A stretch of DNA of 33,079 nucleotides from Sulfuricella sp. (GTDB taxonomy: Bacteria > Pseudomonadota > Gammaproteobacteria > Burkholderiales > Sulfuricellaceae): NCBI GenBank assembly GCA_028714315.1, contig JAQTMN010000026.1, forward strand, positions 1-33,079. Direction: 5' to 3'. Positions 21,122 through 28,832 of this stretch are shown piece after piece (positions within the stretch are counted from its first letter, which is position 1; each line of letters starts with the position of its first letter). The translations under genes were made by a program, and so were the position numbers. Under the pieces are notes generated by a model that worked only from the letters and a program-made list of their open reading frames with translations, was not told where the DNA came from and searched no databases.

Positions 21122-24100
21122 ATGCTCAAACTGCGCGGCGGCAACGCCCTTTCTTCCTTCCGTCTCGACAAACTGATGCAGGGTCTGCGCGACGCCGCGC
21201 CCGCCGTTTCCCACGTCCATGCCGAATACTGGCATTTCGCCGCCGTCCGCCGCGAACTGGAAGCGTCGGAACGGGCGGTGCTGGAACAAATCCTGACCTA
21301 CGGCCCGGCGTCGATGGTGGAAGAGCCGCAGGGCGAACTGTTCCTGGTGGTGCCGCGCATCGGCACGATTTCGCCGTGGTCGTCGAAAGCGTCCGACATC
21401 GCCAGCCATTGCGGGCTGGAAGCCGTCGAGCGGCTGGAGCGCGGGGTAGCTTTCTACGTGCAAAAGCGCGATGGCGCACCGCTCGCGGCTGAGGAAAAAT
21501 CGGCGCTGCTGCCGCTGATCCACGACCGCATGACGGAAGCCGTGCTGGCCGATTTCGATTCCGCCGACAAGCTGTTCCGCCATTTCGAGCCGGCGCCTTT
21601 CGCCAGCGTGGATATTCTCGGCCAGGGCCAATCGGCGCTGGAAGCGGCCAACCGCGAAATGGGCCTGGCGCTGTCGCCGGACGAAATCGAATACCTGGTG
21701 GCCAACTTCAGCCGCGTCGGGCGCAACCCGACCGACGTCGAGCTGATGATGTTCGCCCAGGCCAATTCGGAGCACTGCCGCCACAAGATTTTCAACGCCG
21801 ACTGGGTGATCGACGGCGTGCCGCAGGCAAAATCGCTCTTCGCCATGATCCGCAACACCCACCAGCAAAGCCCGCGCGGCACGGTGGTCGCCTATTCCGA
21901 CAATTCCTCGATCATCGAAGGCTACACGGTCAAGCGCTTCCATCCGCGGGAAGGGCATGCCTACGGCTACGCCGAGGACAATGCCCAGATTCTGATGAAG
22001 GTGGAAACCCACAACCACCCCACCGCGATTTCTCCCTTCCCCGGCGCCGCGACCGGCTCGGGCGGCGAGATCCGCGACGAAGGTGCGACCGGGCGCGGCT
22101 CCAGGCCCAAGGCGGGGTTGACTGGGTTTTCGGTGTCCAATCTGAATATTCCTGGATGCGTTCAGCCCTGGGAATATTATCGCGATTCCGCAACGCCTCA
22201 CTCCTTTGGCAAGCCCAGCCGCATCGCTTCCGCCCTGCAGATCATGCTCGACGGCCCGATCGGCGGCGCGGCGTTCAACAACGAGTTCGGCCGCCCCAAC
22301 CTGGCCGGCTATTTCCGCACCTACGAGGAAGAAGTGGCGGGCGAGATGCGCGGCTACCACAAGCCGATCATGCTGGCCGGCGGCGTCGGCAACATCTCCG
22401 CCAGCCACGCCAATAAGCACCAGATCACCCCCGGCGCGCTGATCATCCAGCTCGGCGGACCGGCCATGCTGATCGGTCTGGGCGGCGGCGCGGCATCCAG
22501 CATGGATACCGGCGCCAACGCGGAGAACCTGGATTTCGATTCGGTGCAGCGCGGCAACCCGGAAATGGAGCGCCGCGCGCAGGAGGTGATCGACCGCTGC
22601 TGGCAGCTGGGCGACCAGAATCCGATCATCTCGATCCACGATGTCGGCGCGGGCGGCCTGTCCAACGCCTTGCCCGAACTGGTGAACGATTCGGGGCGCG
22701 GCGGGCGTTTCCACCTGCGCGCCATCCGCAACGAAGAGCCGGGCATGTCGCCGATGCAGATCTGGAGCAACGAAGCGCAGGAGCGTTACGTGCTCGCCAT
22801 CAAGCCGGAGGATTTCGCACAGTTCGAGGCGATTTGCCGGCGCGAGCGCTGCCTTTACGCCGTGGTCGGCGAGGCCACCGCCGAACAGCGGCTGGTGCTG
22901 GAAGACAGCTATTTCAACAACCGGCCGATCGACATGGACCTGGCGGTGCTGCTCGGCAAGCCGCCGAAGATGACGCGCAATGTCGCGCGCGTCGCGCGGG
23001 AATTGCCGGCTTTCGACGCCGCCGGGCTGGACCTCGACGAGGCGGCTTTCCGCGTGCTGCGCCTGCCGGCGGTGGCGGACAAGACGTTTTTGATTTCCAT
23101 CGGCGACCGCACCGTCGGCGGCATGACCGCGCGCGACCAGTTCGTCGGCCCGTGGCAGGTTCCGGTGGCCGACGTGGCGGTGAGCCTAGCCGGCTTCGAG
23201 GAGTATCGCGGCGAAGCCTTCGCCATGGGCGAGCGCACGCCGCTGGCGTTGATCGACCCGGCCGCTTCGGGGCGCATGGCGATCGGTGAGTCGATCACCA
23301 ACATCGCCGCCGCCAGCATTGCCCAAATCGGCGACATCAAGCTGTCCGCCAACTGGATGGCGCCCGCCGGCCACCCCGGCGAGGACGCCGCGCTGTATGA
23401 CACGGTGCGCGCGGTGGGCATGGAACTGTGTCCGGCGCTCGGCATCAGCATTCCGGTGGGCAAGGATTCGATGTCGATGAAAACGGTGTGGCAGGAGGAC
23501 GGCGGCAAGAAGGAAGTCACCGCGCCGTTGTCGCTGATCGTTTCCGCCTTCGCGCCGTGCGCCGATGCGCGCCTGACGCTGACTCCGCAATTGCGCACCG
23601 ACGCCGGCGAAACCGACCTGATCCTGATCGACCTCGGCCAAGGCAAAAATCGTCTCGGCGGCTCGGCGCTGGCACAGGTCTACAAACAGATCGGCAACCA
23701 GGCGCCGGACGTGGCGAGCGCCACGCAGCTCAAGGCGTTTTTCGACACCGTGCAGCAGCTCAATCGTGACGGCAAACTGCTGGCCTACCACGACCGCTCC
23801 GACGGCGGCCTGTTCGCCGTGCTGTGCGAGATGATGTTCGCCGGCCATTGCGGCGTGACGGTCGAGCTGGGCGAGTCGGGCAATATTTTCGCCGCGCTGT
23901 TCAGCGAGGAACTGGGCGCGGTGCTGCAAGCGAAGCGCGGCGACACCGCCGCGGTGACGGCAGCATTCCAGGCCGCCGGCCTGAGCGCCGAGCTGCGCGT
24001 GATCGGCACCTTGAACACGGAAGACCGCCTTGCCATCCGGTGCAATGGCACGGAAGCGTTCAGCCATTCCCGCATCGAACTGCAACGCGCCTGGTCCGAA

Positions 24101-25015
24101 ACCACCAGCCGGATGCAGGCGCTGCGCGACAATCCGCAATGCGCCGCGCAGGAATACGACCGCATCCTGGACGGCGGCGATCCCGGCTTGCACGCGGCGC
24201 TCGGCTTCGACCTCAACGACGACGTCGCCGCCCCGTACATCGCGACCGGCAAGCGTCCGCGCATGGCGATCCTGCGCGAGCAGGGCGTCAACGGCCAGGT
24301 GGAAATGGCCGCCGCCTTCGACCGCGCCGGCTTCGACGCGGTGGACGTGCACATGAGCGACATCATCGAAGGCCGGGTCGCGCTCAAGGATTTTCGCGGC
24401 TTCGCCGCCTGCGGCGGCTTCTCGTTCGGCGACGTGCTGGGCGCGGGGGAGGGCTGGGCCAAGTCGATCCTGTTCAACAGCCGCGCCCGCGACGAGTTCG
24501 AGGGGTTCTTCCGGCGCAGCGACACCTTCGCTCTCGGCGTGTGCAACGGCTGCCAGATGATGAGCAACCTGTATTCCATCATCCCCGGCGCTTCAAACTG
24601 GGCGCATTTCGTGCGCAACAAATCCGAGCAGTTCGAAGCGCGCTTCGTCATGGTGGAAGTGCCGCAAAGCCCGTCGCTGTTCCTCGACGGCATGGCCGGC
24701 AGCCGCATGCCCATCGTCGTGGCGCACGGCGAAGGCTACGCCGAATTCAGGAGTCCGCAGCAGATGCAGGCCGCCCAAGTCGCGCTGCGCTTCATCGACA
24801 ACCGCGGCAACCCAACCGAAACCTATCCGGCCAACTCCAATGGCTCGGCCCAAGGCATCACCGGCCTGACCACCCCGGACGGCCGCTTCACCATCATGAT
24901 GCCGCACCCCGAGCGCGTGTTCCGCGCGGTGCAGCATTCCTGGCACCCCGATGGGTGGCGCGAGGACGGACCGTGGATGCGGATGTTCAGGAATGCGCGG
25001 AAGTGGGTGGGGTAA
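21122..25015 (+). CDS. purL: Phosphoribosylformylglycinamidine synthase (FGAM synthase)
   Basis: This 1297-residue single-chain enzyme of purine synthesis converts FGAR, glutamine and ATP to FGAM. In order: an N-terminal PurS-like domain (about 1-150), the linker, and two AIR-synthase-like halves with [37 protein letters not shown] and [10 protein letters not shown]. The C-terminal class I glutaminase follows, with [16 protein letters not shown], nucleophile Cys in [10 protein letters not shown] and catalytic His/Glu in [11 protein letters not shown]. The length matches gammaproteobacterial and betaproteobacterial PurL. The ATG is set by the conserved [11 protein letters not shown] start. It stands alone, with repeats upstream and an AT-rich island downstream. 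Confidence 0.97.
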
Positions 25016-25021
25016 GATGAA

Positions 25022-25056
25022 GTTTGGCGACGGGGCGTTTTCTAACGCCGCCAAAC
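25022..25056 (+). terminator. Hairpin after purL
   Basis: GTTTGG and GGCGTT on the left pair with AACGCC and CCAAAC on the right, with a bulge. It starts 6 bases after the purL stop. There is no T-run, so intrinsic termination would be weak. The remaining 25057-25154 is AT-rich with nothing recognisable. Confidence 0.4.
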
Positions 25057-25154
25057 ACGGTTAGCTATATAAGTAACCTATTGAAAGCTATGCTCGCTTC
25101 GCTTTGGTAAGCAGGAGGTGATAAAGTGAGATAAGTGGCCCTATGATTATGATT

Positions 25155-25604
25155 CTATGGGTACTTTTTATCTCTGCCTTCTTCAATTGTTTCAAGCAAT
25201 TGGTCTGTTACAGTACGAATCCCTTTAATGATGTCGCCATGGTAGCTTTGGGGTGTAAATGTGGAAGCATCCGTATTTTGCAATGTTAGCCCCTTTTTAA
25301 ACCGTACCATCAAGCTTAAAGGGATATTCAGCATGTTAAGTGGTGCGCGTTGGAGTGTCCGGTTTATCCGACTTACTTGCCATATGAGTGAGTCACTAGT
25401 TTCAGAGTTAAAGCTGTCGGACGTGTGAAATACGATAGCCATACGCCCAACAGATTTGATTTCTTCGATGACACGATTAACTGCATCGCGGTTTTCTTTT
25501 CGGCGCTCTCGGGAGAGTGCCATTTTGTGTACGACAAACCAACCGGCTAGGACCAATCCCCAAGTAGCCGCATTTGCCCAATTGACCGCTGTTTCGCAGC
25601 CCAT
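25155..25604 (-). CDS. Hypothetical one-TM membrane protein of the AT-rich module
   Basis: The 149-residue protein has no recognised function. Residues 8-30 (NWANAATWGLVLAGWFVVHK) form one membrane segment near the N-terminus, followed by the basic stretch SRERRKENRD and a long cytoplasmic, mostly helical part. This layout is shared by many small unassigned bacterial proteins. It is the last gene of a minus-strand three-gene unit, starting 4 bases after the STAS-like gene ends, which suggests co-transcription. Its base composition is clearly lower in GC than purL next door. It could be the membrane-linked output of the module, but that is inference. Confidence 0.7.
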   Translation of the reverse strand: MGCETAVNWANAATWGLVLAGWFVVHKMALSRERRKENRDAVNRVIEEIKSVGRMAIVFHTSDSFNSETSDSLIWQVSRINRTLQRAPLNMLNIPLSLMVRFKKGLTLQNTDASTFTPQSYHGDIIKGIRTVTDQLLETIEEGRDKKYP

Positions 25605-25608
25605 CTGG

Positions 25609-25941
25609 TTAATGCTGCTTGCTAATTTTGGCTTGTTCTTGAATGTAGCCTTTAATCTCCTCGATCAAGCTAGCATCTTGACTTCTTAGCTCAATTCGAT
25701 TGAGTACATCCTCTGCAGAATACCCAGAGCGGACCAGTCCACCAAAAGCCTCGTCAAGGAACGACGAGCCAAGGCCACGAGCCCCATCTAATTCTATTAG
25801 TACTTTGTCGGTTTTCTCTAAAAGCGCAGGAACAAGAAATTCCTCACGGAACTTTTCACCATTATAAGGACCGTCCGCTACATAGCGACCTGCCGGATAG
25901 CGCGAAAAATCGCGTTCTATGTTAATCACTTTATTTCCCAT
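25609..25941 (-). CDS. STAS-like DUF4325 protein
   Basis: The 110-residue protein matches DUF4325, a STAS-like domain commonly encoded beside GHKL-type ATPases. DGPYNGEKFREEFLVPAL (23-40) and LDGARGLGSSFLDEAFGG (51-68) are the family signatures. The second resembles the loop that is phosphorylated in anti-anti-sigma factors, and Ser59 or Ser60 is a candidate. ATG 25941 is preferred because TTGGAG lies 9 bases upstream; a TTG at 25956 would start inside that site. It overlaps the 3' end of the ATPase gene by 11 bases, so translation is coupled. By analogy with SpoIIAA/SpoIIAB it may be the partner of that ATPase (inference). Confidence 0.82.
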   Translation of the reverse strand: MGNKVINIERDFSRYPAGRYVADGPYNGEKFREEFLVPALLEKTDKVLIELDGARGLGSSFLDEAFGGLVRSGYSAEDVLNRIELRSQDASLIEEIKGYIQEQAKISKQH

Positions 25942-27013
25942 TATGAAATTCTCCAACCAGCGGCACTCGCCAGTAAATGAGGGTCCCTAATATACTCTCT
26001 TTAAGATCATGCGTCTTTGGCCCGGTTCCATTTATTGAGAGATAAAACCCACGATTGCTAAGTACCATAACAATGCCGTCTTTCAGTCCAGAAACGACAT
26101 CCACAATGTTGCCTAACCCTTTCCCTCGCTCTGGAAGTTGGGTGCGCGTACGACTATCTTCAATGGCATCCTGAATACAAGCCCCATCGGAGTTTGCTCG
26201 GCCTAAGGCCTTAAGTTGACTAAAAAGACTTGGTTTTTTAAGGGGTAAAGTATTCGGAATTCCTATACCAAGATCACAAAAAACAACGCTCAGGTAGCCT
26301 TGTCTCGCCTGAGAGAACATCCACCAATCAGCGTGTGGGGGAGTGTAATTTAACCCATCTTCACGAATGTCAATGTAAGCATGATGCTTGGCATTAGTCA
26401 TCGCCTCGCCCAGCCCTCGAAATAAGCCGTTTACTAATGGTAATGCCAATTGACCCTCGAATTCTTCAATGGCCGGAGCGCAAATCGAATTGTCCACAAT
26501 ATGGCCATGAGCCACGCGCCAATGTACTACATCATCGTAGTAGCTACTTCGCTTCTTTACAATCTGACCGCACTTGTCATAGACGCCAATCTGATGCAGC
26601 ACTTGGCATGCCCGGTCATTGGAAGGTGGTTTGCATCGAATACGAATGCGGTTTCCAGTAATCTCAATAAGGCGAGACAACTCGGCGTAAAATAAAAGAG
26701 TAGCGCTTGAAACAAAGCGGGTGGTTTTTGTGAAGTCGATTGTAATTGCCCGAACATCATCGCGAATAAAAGTTTTGCGCAAATCAGAAAGGAAACTCAC
26801 TACGGGTCCCCGTGTTTCGTTTTTTTCAATGTCAAATTCTATTGGGGCTAATATTCGTTCAGGAGGCGGCTTGCGCCCAAGTTTTTTTTGATCGCATAAG
26901 GAACATTGCCTATGTTTTCGTATTCGTTTCATACGATTTTTGGCAAATTTTCGCTTGATTTTTCTGGTTATACGGTCCAGCCGCTGTCGCTTATCTTTAG
27001 ATAATCTTTTCAA
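25931..27013 (-). CDS. GHKL-type ATPase with basic N-terminus and STAS-like middle region
   Basis: The 360-residue protein has a strongly basic N-terminus (1-45; rich in Lys/Arg, with a CSLC pair at 37-40), suggestive of nucleic-acid binding. A region at about 70-150 (VRAITIDFTKTTRFVSS) looks like a STAS fold. The C-terminal GHKL ATPase (about 185-355) has its N-box in GLGEAMTNAKHHAY (Glu203, Asn207), G1 in FCDLGIGIPN (Asp247) and G2 in RGKGLGN (296-302). No His-phosphotransfer domain is present, so it is not an ordinary sensor kinase; a serine kinase of the anti-sigma type is possible. It starts with TTG at 27013, with AAGG 7 bases upstream, and heads the AT-rich three-gene unit. Confidence 0.78.
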   Translation of the reverse strand: MKRLSKDKRQRLDRITRKIKRKFAKNRMKRIRKHRQCSLCDQKKLGRKPPPERILAPIEFDIEKNETRGPVVSFLSDLRKTFIRDDVRAITIDFTKTTRFVSSATLLFYAELSRLIEITGNRIRIRCKPPSNDRACQVLHQIGVYDKCGQIVKKRSSYYDDVVHWRVAHGHIVDNSICAPAIEEFEGQLALPLVNGLFRGLGEAMTNAKHHAYIDIREDGLNYTPPHADWWMFSQARQGYLSVVFCDLGIGIPNTLPLKKPSLFSQLKALGRANSDGACIQDAIEDSRTRTQLPERGKGLGNIVDVVSGLKDGIVMVLSNRGFYLSINGTGPKTHDLKESILGTLIYWRVPLVGEFHNGK

Positions 27014-27420
27014 AACGGAACCTTGCCATTGAGAGGGTGTCGCCCTCGGTAACTTGATTTTGTTGATAATACTATGAACAATTAATGAGGAACCACCGGG
27101 AACCGATATATCTCAGCTATCGGCAGTTCATAATTCAGCTCGCTAATTTTGAGTTTCTTGTTCACGGACTAAGTGACAGCCGCCGAAACCCCCGCCCATG
27201 GCGGCGTTTGGCCGGAAATCCTTGCGTTCCGCGCTTGGCAATAGTTTGCCTGCCATGGTAATCTGAAATCAGGATTCGAGACCGGGAGACTCCCGCTCTT
27301 TTCCGGCGATCACCCAGCGTTTCGCAACTGAATATCGGCAACCCGGCGGCCTGTTTCTCCCGGTTGGCCGGCGTTCGCCGCGATCCAATAATAACGGCCG
27401 GCCTATCAGGGGGAGATGAC
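27014..27420. other. Intergenic region between the AT-rich module and glgC
   Basis: About 400 bases without a gene. The left third is AT-rich like the module and holds a small hairpin GAGGGTGTCGCCCTC (27033-27047) in the presumed leader of the ATPase gene, plus a TATTAT element on the minus strand near 27070. From about 27175 the composition returns to GC-rich, so the module's right edge is probably near 27160. AGGGGGAGATGAC at the end is the glgC ribosome site. No tRNA, integrase or direct repeat was seen. Confidence 0.5.
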
Positions 27421-28644
27421 ATGGCAGTTCCAAAAATCCTGGCGATCGTGATGGCGGGGGGTGAGGGAAGCCGTCTGTACCCTTTGACCGCCGACAATTC
27501 CAAGCCTTCGGTGCCTTTCGGGGCGCGCTATCGCATCGTGGATTTCGTGTTGAGCAATCTGGTCAACTCGGAAATCCTGTCCATTTACCTCCTGGTCCAG
27601 TACAAATCCCAGTCGCTGATCGAGCACGTGCGCAAGGCGTGGGTGATGTCGCCGCTGGTGTCCAGCCATTTCGTCACCGTGGTGCCGCCGCAGATGCGGG
27701 TCGATTCGCGCTGGTTCCAGGGCACGGCGGACGCGGTGCACCAGAATCTCGACCTGATCTACCTGCACCGCCCGGACATGGTCGCGGTGTTCGGCGCGGA
27801 TCACATCTATCGCATGGACATTCGCCAGATGGTGGCCTTCCATCAGGCCCAGAAGGCGGATGTTACCGTGGCCGCCCTGCCGGTGCCGATCGCGGATGCT
27901 TCCTCGTTCGGCGTGATCGCGGCTGACCCCGACGGGCGGGTGCGGGATTTTCAGGAGAAGCCCGTCAACCCCAGCGCTATGCCGGGCGATCCGTCGCGCG
28001 CTTATGCCTCGATGGGAAACTACCTGTTCAATACGGACGTGCTGGTGGCGGCGCTGGAAGAAGCCCACAAGAAACAGGAGCACGACTTCGGCAAGCACGT
28101 GCTGCCGCGCCTGAAGGAAACCAACAAGGTCTACGCCTACGATTTTTCCACCAATGTCGTGCCGGGGATCAAGGCCTCCGAGGAACCGGCATACTGGCGC
28201 GACGTGGGCACCATCGAGGCCTATTTCGCCGCCCACATGGACGTGCTGGGCTTGCAGCCGCGTTTCGACGCCTTCAATACCTCGTGGCCGATCTATTCCA
28301 GCAACTACCAGGGGCCGGTTGCCAAGTTCGTCAGCGGCCGGATCGAGAACAGCATTTTTGCCGGCGGCACGATGGTGAACGGCGCTTCGGTGCGCAATTC
28401 GGTGGTGCGGCGCGAGGTGGTGCTGGAAGAAGACGTGGAACTGGACGAGTGCATCATCATGGATTACGTGGTGATCAAGCGCGGCAGCCGTTTGCGCCGG
28501 GTGATCGTGGATCGCTACAACGTGCTCGAAGAAAATACGCGCATCGGGTTCGATCCGGTGGCGGATCGCAACCGCTATCAAGTCAGCGAATCCGGCATTA
28601 CCATCGTGCCGGCGGGGCGGCGCGGGCTGGATTTCGTGTATTGA
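27421..28644 (+). CDS. glgC: Glucose-1-phosphate adenylyltransferase (ADP-glucose pyrophosphorylase)
   Basis: This 407-residue enzyme makes ADP-glucose, the first committed step of glycogen synthesis. Visible are the nucleotide-binding start AIVMAGGEGSRLYPLT, SKPSVPFGARYRIVDFVLSN, WFQGTADAVHQN, the catalytic FGADHIYRMD, the glucose-phosphate region FQEKPVNP with YASMGNYLFN, and YWRDVGTIEAYF. The C-terminal left-handed helix part includes NSVVRREVVLEEDVELDECI. ATG 27421 is set by the ribosome site AGGGGGAGA. No glgA, glgB or glgP is adjacent. It is separated from the island by 400 bases and followed by the second MITE-like copy. Confidence 0.95.
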   Translation: MAVPKILAIVMAGGEGSRLYPLTADNSKPSVPFGARYRIVDFVLSNLVNSEILSIYLLVQYKSQSLIEHVRKAWVMSPLVSSHFVTVVPPQMRVDSRWFQGTADAVHQNLDLIYLHRPDMVAVFGADHIYRMDIRQMVAFHQAQKADVTVAALPVPIADASSFGVIAADPDGRVRDFQEKPVNPSAMPGDPSRAYASMGNYLFNTDVLVAALEEAHKKQEHDFGKHVLPRLKETNKVYAYDFSTNVVPGIKASEEPAYWRDVGTIEAYFAAHMDVLGLQPRFDAFNTSWPIYSSNYQGPVAKFVSGRIENSIFAGGTMVNGASVRNSVVRREVVLEEDVELDECIIMDYVVIKRGSRLRRVIVDRYNVLEENTRIGFDPVADRNRYQVSESGITIVPAGRRGLDFVY

Positions 28645-28651
28645 CCGGTTT

Positions 28652-28805
28652 CATGCTAAAACCCCATTTGAACCACGGGGAACGGCGAGGGATTCTGAAT
28701 TTAAGCTTCGTCACCCAATGGGTGACATGGGCAAATCACGCGACAAATGGATTTTACCCCTGTGTTCCCCGTGAACCCCGTGGTTGACTGCGTTTTTATA
28801 GGATC
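28652..28805. repeat. Interspersed MITE-like repeat, copy 2
   Basis: About 154 bp, alignable end to end with 5325-5469. It has arms AACCACGGGGAAC and GTTCCCCGTGAACCCCGTGG (the right arm contains an extra 9-base unit), ending TTTTATAGGATC. It begins 7 bases after the glgC stop. Confidence 0.7.
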
Positions 28806-28832
28806 AAGGTCGGGCACTGGATTCATCCAGTA

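Follow-up and report, generated by a model that had tools for sequence, protein, structure and literature searches.

In this work we describe a compact cassette of three minus-strand genes in a contig of Sulfuricella sp. (JAQTMN010000026.1), of which positions 1 to 33,079 were analysed; this whole stretch of 33,079 nucleotides is referred to as the window. Gene A (25931-27013) starts with TTG and encodes a STAS-GHKL kinase-like protein of 360 amino acids (aa), as judged from a match to phrog_3364, residue conservation and a structure model. It is followed by gene S (25609-25956), encoding a DUF4325 STAS-like protein of 115 aa when counted from a TTG, and by gene T (25155-25604), which starts with ATG and encodes a helical protein of 149 aa with one likely transmembrane (TM) segment, as indicated by hydropathy and model. 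All three open reading frames (ORFs) are intact and free of internal stops. The gap between S and T is 4 bases, and A and S overlap by 11 bases if S is counted from an alternative in-frame ATG at 25941; with the overlap counted in this way, the tight packing described in an earlier note, which was made from the DNA letters alone, agrees with the ORF coordinates. The cassette is a real, widespread and mobile three-gene system and probably constitutes an undescribed anti-phage switch.

The genes lie in an inserted low-GC block, which extends from the purL stop to the start of homology to the glgC region of a sister genome (25016-27182, no strand assigned). Its GC content is 0.448 as compared to 0.637 in the remainder of the window, and the lowest value among 267 other segments of the same size is 0.554. 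The GC content at third codon positions (GC3) amounts to 0.40, 0.40 and 0.45 for A, S and T, respectively, as compared to 0.54-0.87 in 12 other long ORFs. Base and codon statistics therefore differ from the rest of the window instead of matching a host average, and the sharp return to GC-rich sequence that the earlier note placed near 27170 is also the point where homology to the sister glgC region starts, at 27183. None of the ORFs in the block was seen to encode an integrase or transposase, and the ends of the insertion show no clear repeats, only short pairs taken for chance. In a PADLOC search of the window proteins neither A, S nor T had a match, and a known PADLOC system was rejected on this ground. 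NCBIfam gave a single chance-level match, to S (E 0.16).

Protein A belongs to phrog_3364 (E 1.5e-43), which is of unknown function in PHROGs. Its model (pLDDT 91) consists of a helix (residues 6-44), an alpha/beta domain (52-147) and a following ATPase-type domain. The GHKL boxes were located by conservation and, for the first two, by alignment: the N-box E203..N207..HAY213 (26375-26407), aligned with the N-box of RsbW and SpoIIAB, the G1 box DLGIGIP (residues 247-253, 26255-26275) and the G2 box RGKG (residues 296-299, 26117-26128). Across 136 distinct A proteins these boxes are near-invariant, as expected from their assignment in the earlier note, with E203, N207, H211, D247, G249, R296, G297 and G299 each conserved to 98-100% and K298 to 80%. 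Rounded and with gaps set aside, N207, W230, D247, G249, G297, G299 and T344 reach 100%, and E203, H211 and G343 reach 99%. The invariant W230 and the neighbouring W231 (97%) fall within or next to a segment absent from SpoIIAB. The Pfam family HATPase_c_2 is weak in the window copy (E 0.06, 13.8 bits, below the cut-off of 27.4) and is found at E<=0.1 in 50 of 82 A members. The top PDB folds for the model are CheA P4 (1.5e-5) and SpoIIAB (1e-4), and an A profile searched against PDB sequences retrieved RsbW (E 0.0023) and SpoIIAB (0.075-0.093).

The STAS-like region that had been noticed in A (residues 52-128, 26630-26860) is borne out by Pfam matches of its relatives at E<=0.1 (STAS in 4 and STAS_2 in 2 of 82 members) and by the alpha/beta domain of the model. 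Residues 1-50 (26864-27013) form a basic stretch, as seen from charge count and model; the median charge of the first 50 residues is +13 (n=107) as compared to +1 in other blocks. The earlier note described this N-terminus as basic and Cys-containing and proposed a nucleic-acid sensor arm. The basic helix is conserved, whereas the cysteines are not: the Cys pair of the window copy is not a family property, and two or more Cys occur in only 10 of 107 proteins, by which a conserved Cys or zinc sensor arm was rejected.

The DUF4325 identity of S stands, with a Pfam match (PF14213) above the gathering cut-off (51.4 bits vs 23, E 8.7e-14). The match covers residues 32-92, and no other Pfam family is found at E<=1. 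S also matches the C-terminal end of phrog_5816 (E 1.4e-15), again of unknown function in PHROGs; the same family matches one divergent A weakly at mid-length (E 0.005), and to take it as a natural A-S fusion, and as a sign of contact, is only suggestive. Ser64 and Ser65 (25762-25767) lie in the motif GSSFLDEAFGG. Of 21 S proteins found without a motif pattern, 20 have Ser at position 65 and 14 have it at position 64. Because Ser65 is present in all 19 of these proteins that have an adjoining kinase, and Gly65 occurs only in the kinase-less S of Vibrio vulnificus, Ser65 is the presumed phospho-acceptor. The loop aligns weakly with GSSF of a solved STAS domain (3t6o, E 0.11). In the scanned S proteins the motif residues are 98-100% conserved, partly by construction, since the genome scan required SS[FY]L[ED]E[AVS]FG and the viral scan S[FY]L[ED]E[AVS]FG. 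In V. vulnificus (L203:3998-4720) the DUF4325 gene with Gly at the Ser65 position is followed by a two-TM protein, with no adjoining kinase. The loci L201 and L202 form a divergent branch, in which the GSSFLEE of other S proteins is replaced by GPSWSNE or GPSWANE.

The likely TM segment of T (residues 9-28, 25521-25580) was placed by hydropathy and falls within the model helix 5-61. The usual hydropathy threshold for a TM segment is 1.6. The peak of the window copy over 19 residues is 1.34, and many relatives are higher. The single TM segment of the earlier note is thus likely, though not certain from the window copy alone. The model (pLDDT 95) is all-helical, with three helices following helix 5-61. 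Pfam contains no family that matches the window T, and from this together with the all-helical model a PIN or other named toxin was rejected; for 84 T relatives one weak match to a PIN-named family appears (E 0.011, among the best 25 of 72 families). The top viral structure match (E 4.2e-3), an unnamed protein, has 159 aa, as does T of Marinobacter phage AS1. G21, W22, R32, R35, K36, T107 and F111 are the most conserved residues, the window T having Thr at 111. Weak single matches of relatives to Saf_2TM (E 0.001), holin and spanin families were not built on.

Relatives of the whole cassette were found on phages, plasmids and chromosomes. The first BLAST matches in A-S-T order came from Marinobacter phage AS1, a Vibrio alfacsensis plasmid and two Acinetobacter plasmids; in a Novosphingobium plasmid T is present as an unannotated ORF, and BLAST with T itself gave no match in plasmids. 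In an Acinetobacter wuhouensis plasmid (L006) A is interrupted by an ISAba14 element, with S and T reading open. An alignment scan for S gave 307 pattern matches in genome_contigs, of which 283 were confirmed, and 277 in viral_contigs, of which 239 were confirmed; when only the A protein was used to scan genome_contigs, none of its 40 pattern matches was confirmed. The locus counts rest on the best 80 relatives of each set, found with motif-based scans, and hence describe the nearer, motif-carrying relatives. The resulting 166 loci comprise these 160 scan loci, five phage or plasmid loci and the window. By BLAST, 160 of the 166 have an A relative (156 directly before S) and 129 a T relative (125 directly after S).

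In 133 of 145 non-redundant loci, profiles and a distance rule place A and T on either side of S, a count that is partly circular for T, since the ORFs used to build the T profile were chosen by position in these loci; the BLAST counts and the loci picked by A are free of this circularity. Among the 12 other loci, four have a TM ORF missed by the profile, three lie at a contig end (L073, L099, L139), two fail the distance rule only, an A or T ORF being there (L102, L080), and in three (L038, L062, L143) that S lacks an intact kinase next to it. The spacing between S and T is -45 to +30 nucleotides in 130 of the 133. A search of the class picked nine loci by A alone, besides that of the window, an eleventh match (G130) being left out. 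S adjoins A in all nine and a TM protein is the third gene in eight, six of them found by the T profile and two (L200, L202) by hydropathy; L201 has no TM ORF after S. Tree distances correlate between A and S (0.43), A and T (0.61) and S and T (0.51; n=114; maximum of 999 permutations 0.19), which shows that the genes travel together, not that their products are in contact. The three genes are a conserved mobile unit, and close relatives without the TM gene in fixed chromosomal positions, which would have spoken against the earlier proposal, do not describe the family.

An S match was present in 13 plasmid records, of which ten were examined, three V. parahaemolyticus records being left out. 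Besides the four Vibrio alfacsensis, Acinetobacter and Novosphingobium plasmids, those of L. interrogans, P. multocida, V. scophthalmi and A. caviae carry kinase, S and TM protein, the kinase of A. caviae being a short ORF (E 3.7e-5); the remaining two of the ten are the V. vulnificus and P. silesiensis records. A Helicobacter prophage also carries the three genes. In Leptospira, Helicobacter and V. scophthalmi the third gene encodes a small TM protein although the T profile gives no match. One viral contig (L143) holds a full A-S-T module and an S-T pair in the opposite direction (L143:501-1345; L143:1595-3324); no kinase lies in the 450-500 bases before the second pair, where the contig ends. 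A search of E. coli genomes with the L146 DNA found none.

The distribution is sporadic: A was found in one of 22 genomes of the family, that of the window itself (single protein query, E<=0.001), and in 11 of 369 genomes of the class, with one copy each (profile, E<=1e-15). The cassette occurs in chromosomes, plasmids and temperate phages. In two sister genomes, G003 (L190) and G006 (L191), only 16 bp separate the purL stop from the next conserved stretch, which by reading of the ORF is the terminator side of a peptidyl-prolyl isomerase gene; the same junction points in the window are 25015 and 28832, with the cassette and glgC in between. In G010, which among the sisters has the GlgC and PurL most similar to those of the window, the glgC gene, whose protein is 97% identical, is located elsewhere, and homology to the window begins at 27183, so that the cassette block is flanked on both sides by sequence with its own history. 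G011 has a different gene at the purL junction, EAL-type by reading of the ORF, no window match was found downstream of purL in the stretches fetched from G009 and G010, and the G007 contig runs only 1.8 kb past purL. Atypical GC and GC3 values and positions that are not fixed among relatives bear out the horizontal acquisition assumed in the earlier note.

The genes directly upstream of A were compared in 107 loci with a same-strand ORF there; 37 of 144 loci had none, lacked a long A ORF or left no room. In overlapping counts, Peptidase_S24 was found 17 times, HTH_3 14 times, HTH_31 8 times, and HTH_19, the CI-repressor domain and a type I specificity subunit twice each; the remaining families have one or two members each, many of them housekeeping (among the best 25 of 116 families). 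A BLAST cluster of repressor-like proteins, whose members were not checked individually, occurs in 24 of 59 viral as compared to 8 of 86 other loci and provides the gene directly upstream of A in 16 of 145. A repressor-type gene is found at this position in Marinobacter phage AS1 and in a P. multocida phage-like plasmid. In Francisella phage KIRK, Cro and CI are followed by a 293-aa AS1-like protein, a 112-aa DUF4325 protein and a 125-aa TM protein, the latter three listed as hypothetical in that report (PMC7924643). An annotated toxin-antitoxin pair was also present on all four plasmid stretches first fetched, and on the Leptospira plasmid a nucleotidyltransferase/HepT-like pair follows T.

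In three loci (L008, L028, L084) the cassette lies inside or right behind type I restriction-modification genes; in L028 it is followed by ORFs of 393 aa (ATPase-like) and 167 aa, by reading of the ORFs. PADLOC was applied to 120 neighbour genes out of 465; they came from 21 of the 80 genome loci (L007-L024 and L028-L030, with L025-L027 and L031 onward left out), a sample that leans towards restriction genes since L028 was kept after such genes had been seen there. Type I restriction models match at most 3 of the 120 genes each (among the best 25 of 168 families). Ninety control genes matched 20 PADLOC families, none of them type I restriction, the GlgB model with 10 genes and the others once.

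The closest described system is VapKSC, published in June 2026 (Chambers et al., EMBO J 2026; PMC13373217). As laid out in its published description, it has the same order of STAS-GHKL kinase, short STAS protein and third gene; the kinase is proposed to phosphorylate the STAS antitoxin, thereby freeing a PIN toxin, and the phosphomimic S48E of VapS neither binds nor restrains VapC. The operon gave about 2 logs of protection against one phage, which was lost in toxin, Ser and VapK F54A mutants (PMC13373217). VapK was insoluble, and its kinase activity and response to single-stranded DNA (ssDNA) were not shown directly there; phosphorylation and ssDNA activation were both shown for the related CapK-CapS, the ssDNA-stacking aromatic residue being CapK W68 or VapK F54 (PMC13373217). 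Like VapS as described there, S has a conserved Ser (Ser65 in 20 of the 21 motif-free proteins) and a C-terminal tail, and like VapK, A is a STAS-GHKL protein of kinase type without an N-terminal helix-turn-helix. The differences from the published system are that S is of the DUF4325 type, that A has a long basic N-terminal helix, and that the third gene product is helical and likely to have a TM segment, where VapKSC has a PIN RNase. Neither DUF4325 nor "transmembrane" occurs in the main text of the VapKSC paper (PMC13373217), and a tblastn search at E 10 aimed at CapK/VapK gave no such match.

As published, CapK-CapS likewise joins a kinase with STAS and GHKL parts to its adjoining STAS substrate, but CapS has a DNA-binding winged helix-turn-helix and controls a downstream operon, whereas S has none and ends about 23 residues past the DUF4325 match. 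SpoIIAB/SpoIIAA and RsbW/RsbV share the GHKL fold, the N-box and G1 alignment and the conserved Ser in a STAS loop; they differ in that A has a STAS part of its own and a basic helix, that a membrane protein is third, and that the three-gene unit contains neither sigma factor nor phosphatase. Of the partner-switching module proposed in the earlier note, the kinase/STAS logic and the membrane third component can be retained; among published systems, CapK-CapS and VapKSC are closer to this logic than switching of the sigma-factor type. Lambda rexAB and the protective CarolAnn 43/44 genes are co-expressed with the repressor (PMC6426606), and the present cassette resembles them, as described there, in having one membrane partner and a repressor-linked position in some phages, though not for the window copy. 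In that description CarolAnn gp43 and Sbash gp31 have four TM segments as compared to one likely segment in T, and no DUF4747 match was found in the window proteins.

In the literature searched, which does not include preprints, most subscription papers and supplements, no paper joins "STAS-like" with "anti-phage", or "partner-switching" with "prophage" and "phage defense"; a STAS domain with GHKL and prophage, or with anti-phage and kinase, led to the VapKSC paper only. In the text available, DUF4325 is mentioned in the KIRK paper (PMC7924643) and in a Rhizophagus paper, and "STAS-like domain" in a paper on MlaFB and in a Paenibacillus larvae prophage gene list.

Since the plan is that of VapKSC with a membrane protein in third place, we read the cassette as kinase A, switch S and membrane effector T. 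That such an effector is released against incoming phage is the interpretation towards which we lean slightly. A would work in the cytoplasm as a serine kinase of the STAS-GHKL type, with S as its STAS-like substrate and T as the output. At rest, unphosphorylated S would keep T inactive, T being built of a likely single-TM anchor and a helical cytosolic bundle. The most plausible trigger for A would be a nucleic-acid signal, for example ssDNA, that reports infection or DNA damage. Once activated, A would phosphorylate S at Ser65; S would then release T, whose action at the membrane would arrest the cell or keep out the incoming phage. Phosphorylation of S by A is likely, judging from the catalytic and presumed acceptor residues. 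By analogy with VapS, control of T by S is reasonably probable, as is a role in phage defence or exclusion. The nucleic-acid trigger, proposed by analogy as well, is put forward with some reserve.

Several observations weigh against this interpretation. ssDNA sensing by A is assumed by analogy. A and T track each other (r 0.61) better than S and T do (0.51), although by the VapKSC model S should bind the effector; this is a mild result against restraint of T by S. T has no recognised fold, as its model gave no match at E<=0.001 to PDB or viral structures, and the best matches of its profile to PDB sequences, a designed coiled coil and a lectin stalk (2.3e-5), are read as coil composition. S genes without an adjoining kinase exist in V. 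vulnificus, P. silesiensis (S alone), L038, L062 and once in L143. Finally, the enrichment in defence islands that the earlier note proposed to look for is weak and is not claimed here: relatives of HsdM/R/S lie within about 10 kb in just 6 of 86 non-viral loci as compared to 0 of 9 control loci, and three of these six loci supplied the queries. For comparison, the published account places VapKSC within 10 kb of another immune gene in 103 of 289 cases and CapK-CapS directly behind a restriction system in 88 of 443 (PMC13373217). The position next to cI in some phages is a stronger hint of defence than the restriction linkage.

The better correlation of A with T keeps alive an alternative in which T is the input, a membrane sensor or anchor that recruits A and S, and the output is a host or phage regulator addressed through S as in classic partner switching. 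This would suit a small protein without a catalytic domain above cut-off, and classic systems of this kind regulate transcription (PMC8256260). The same gene set, however, is carried by replicons that are unrelated to each other, and its hosts range from Pseudomonadota to Leptospira and Helicobacter, which makes a fixed host target unlikely, and sigma-70 appears once in each neighbour Pfam list and PP2C in neither (among the best 25 of 116 and 25 of 114 families); we regard this alternative as unlikely. A module of prophage timing, which senses DNA damage and tunes induction or lysis without excluding other phages, would explain why the cassette adjoins repressor genes in some temperate phages and why the related CapK responds to ssDNA (PMC13373217), but for the window copy and many others the neighbours are chromosomal or plasmid genes and no repressor adjoins, so that we consider it improbable.

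Slightly less probable still is an addiction cassette with S as antitoxin and T as toxin, maintained for selfish stability with incidental effects on phages. The toxin-antitoxin pairs on the plasmids, including the pair behind T in Leptospira, and the description of VapKSC itself as TA-like (toxin-antitoxin-like; PMC13373217) point in this direction; on the other hand, simple addiction should need no kinase-gated third gene, and the window copy sits on a chromosomal contig between housekeeping genes. An ordinary regulatory operon of this species, for which the intactness of the genes could be cited, is very improbable and was rejected in view of the 21 other family genomes in which A was not found, the atypical GC content and the empty site in two relatives.

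Returning to the kinase-gated membrane effector, we suggest tentatively that the cassette represents a widespread and undescribed class, borne by temperate phages, plasmids and genomic islands, in which infection, probably via ssDNA, would lead to phosphorylation of a DUF4325 protein and release of a membrane-disabling single-TM effector, a sister of VapKSC with membrane output and a mechanistically new, rex-like exclusion. If true, the STAS/GHKL phospho-switch, linked to phage immunity only recently, would be a general adaptor that arms nucleases, transcription and membranes. It would also assign a function to phrog_3364 and DUF4325, for which the searched libraries name none, and one result would annotate many genes, given the 283 and 239 S relatives in genome_contigs and viral_contigs. 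Furthermore, it makes testable how a prophage gates a membrane effector by phosphorylation.

Three features of the surrounding genes are worth recording. The junction between purL and the peptidyl-prolyl isomerase gene is variable, being empty in two sisters (L190:5936-5952; L191), occupied by the EAL-type gene in a third (L189:5541-6728) and by the cassette plus glgC in the window (25016-28831). The glgC gene (27183-28650) has apparently moved, its 97% identical counterpart in G010 (L180) having other neighbours. Within the window PurL (21122-25015), one loop carries differing in-frame inserts among the sister genomes, with PLPNPLP-type repeat peptides in L187 and L189 and another insert in L192, which look as if repeat elements were translated within an essential enzyme.

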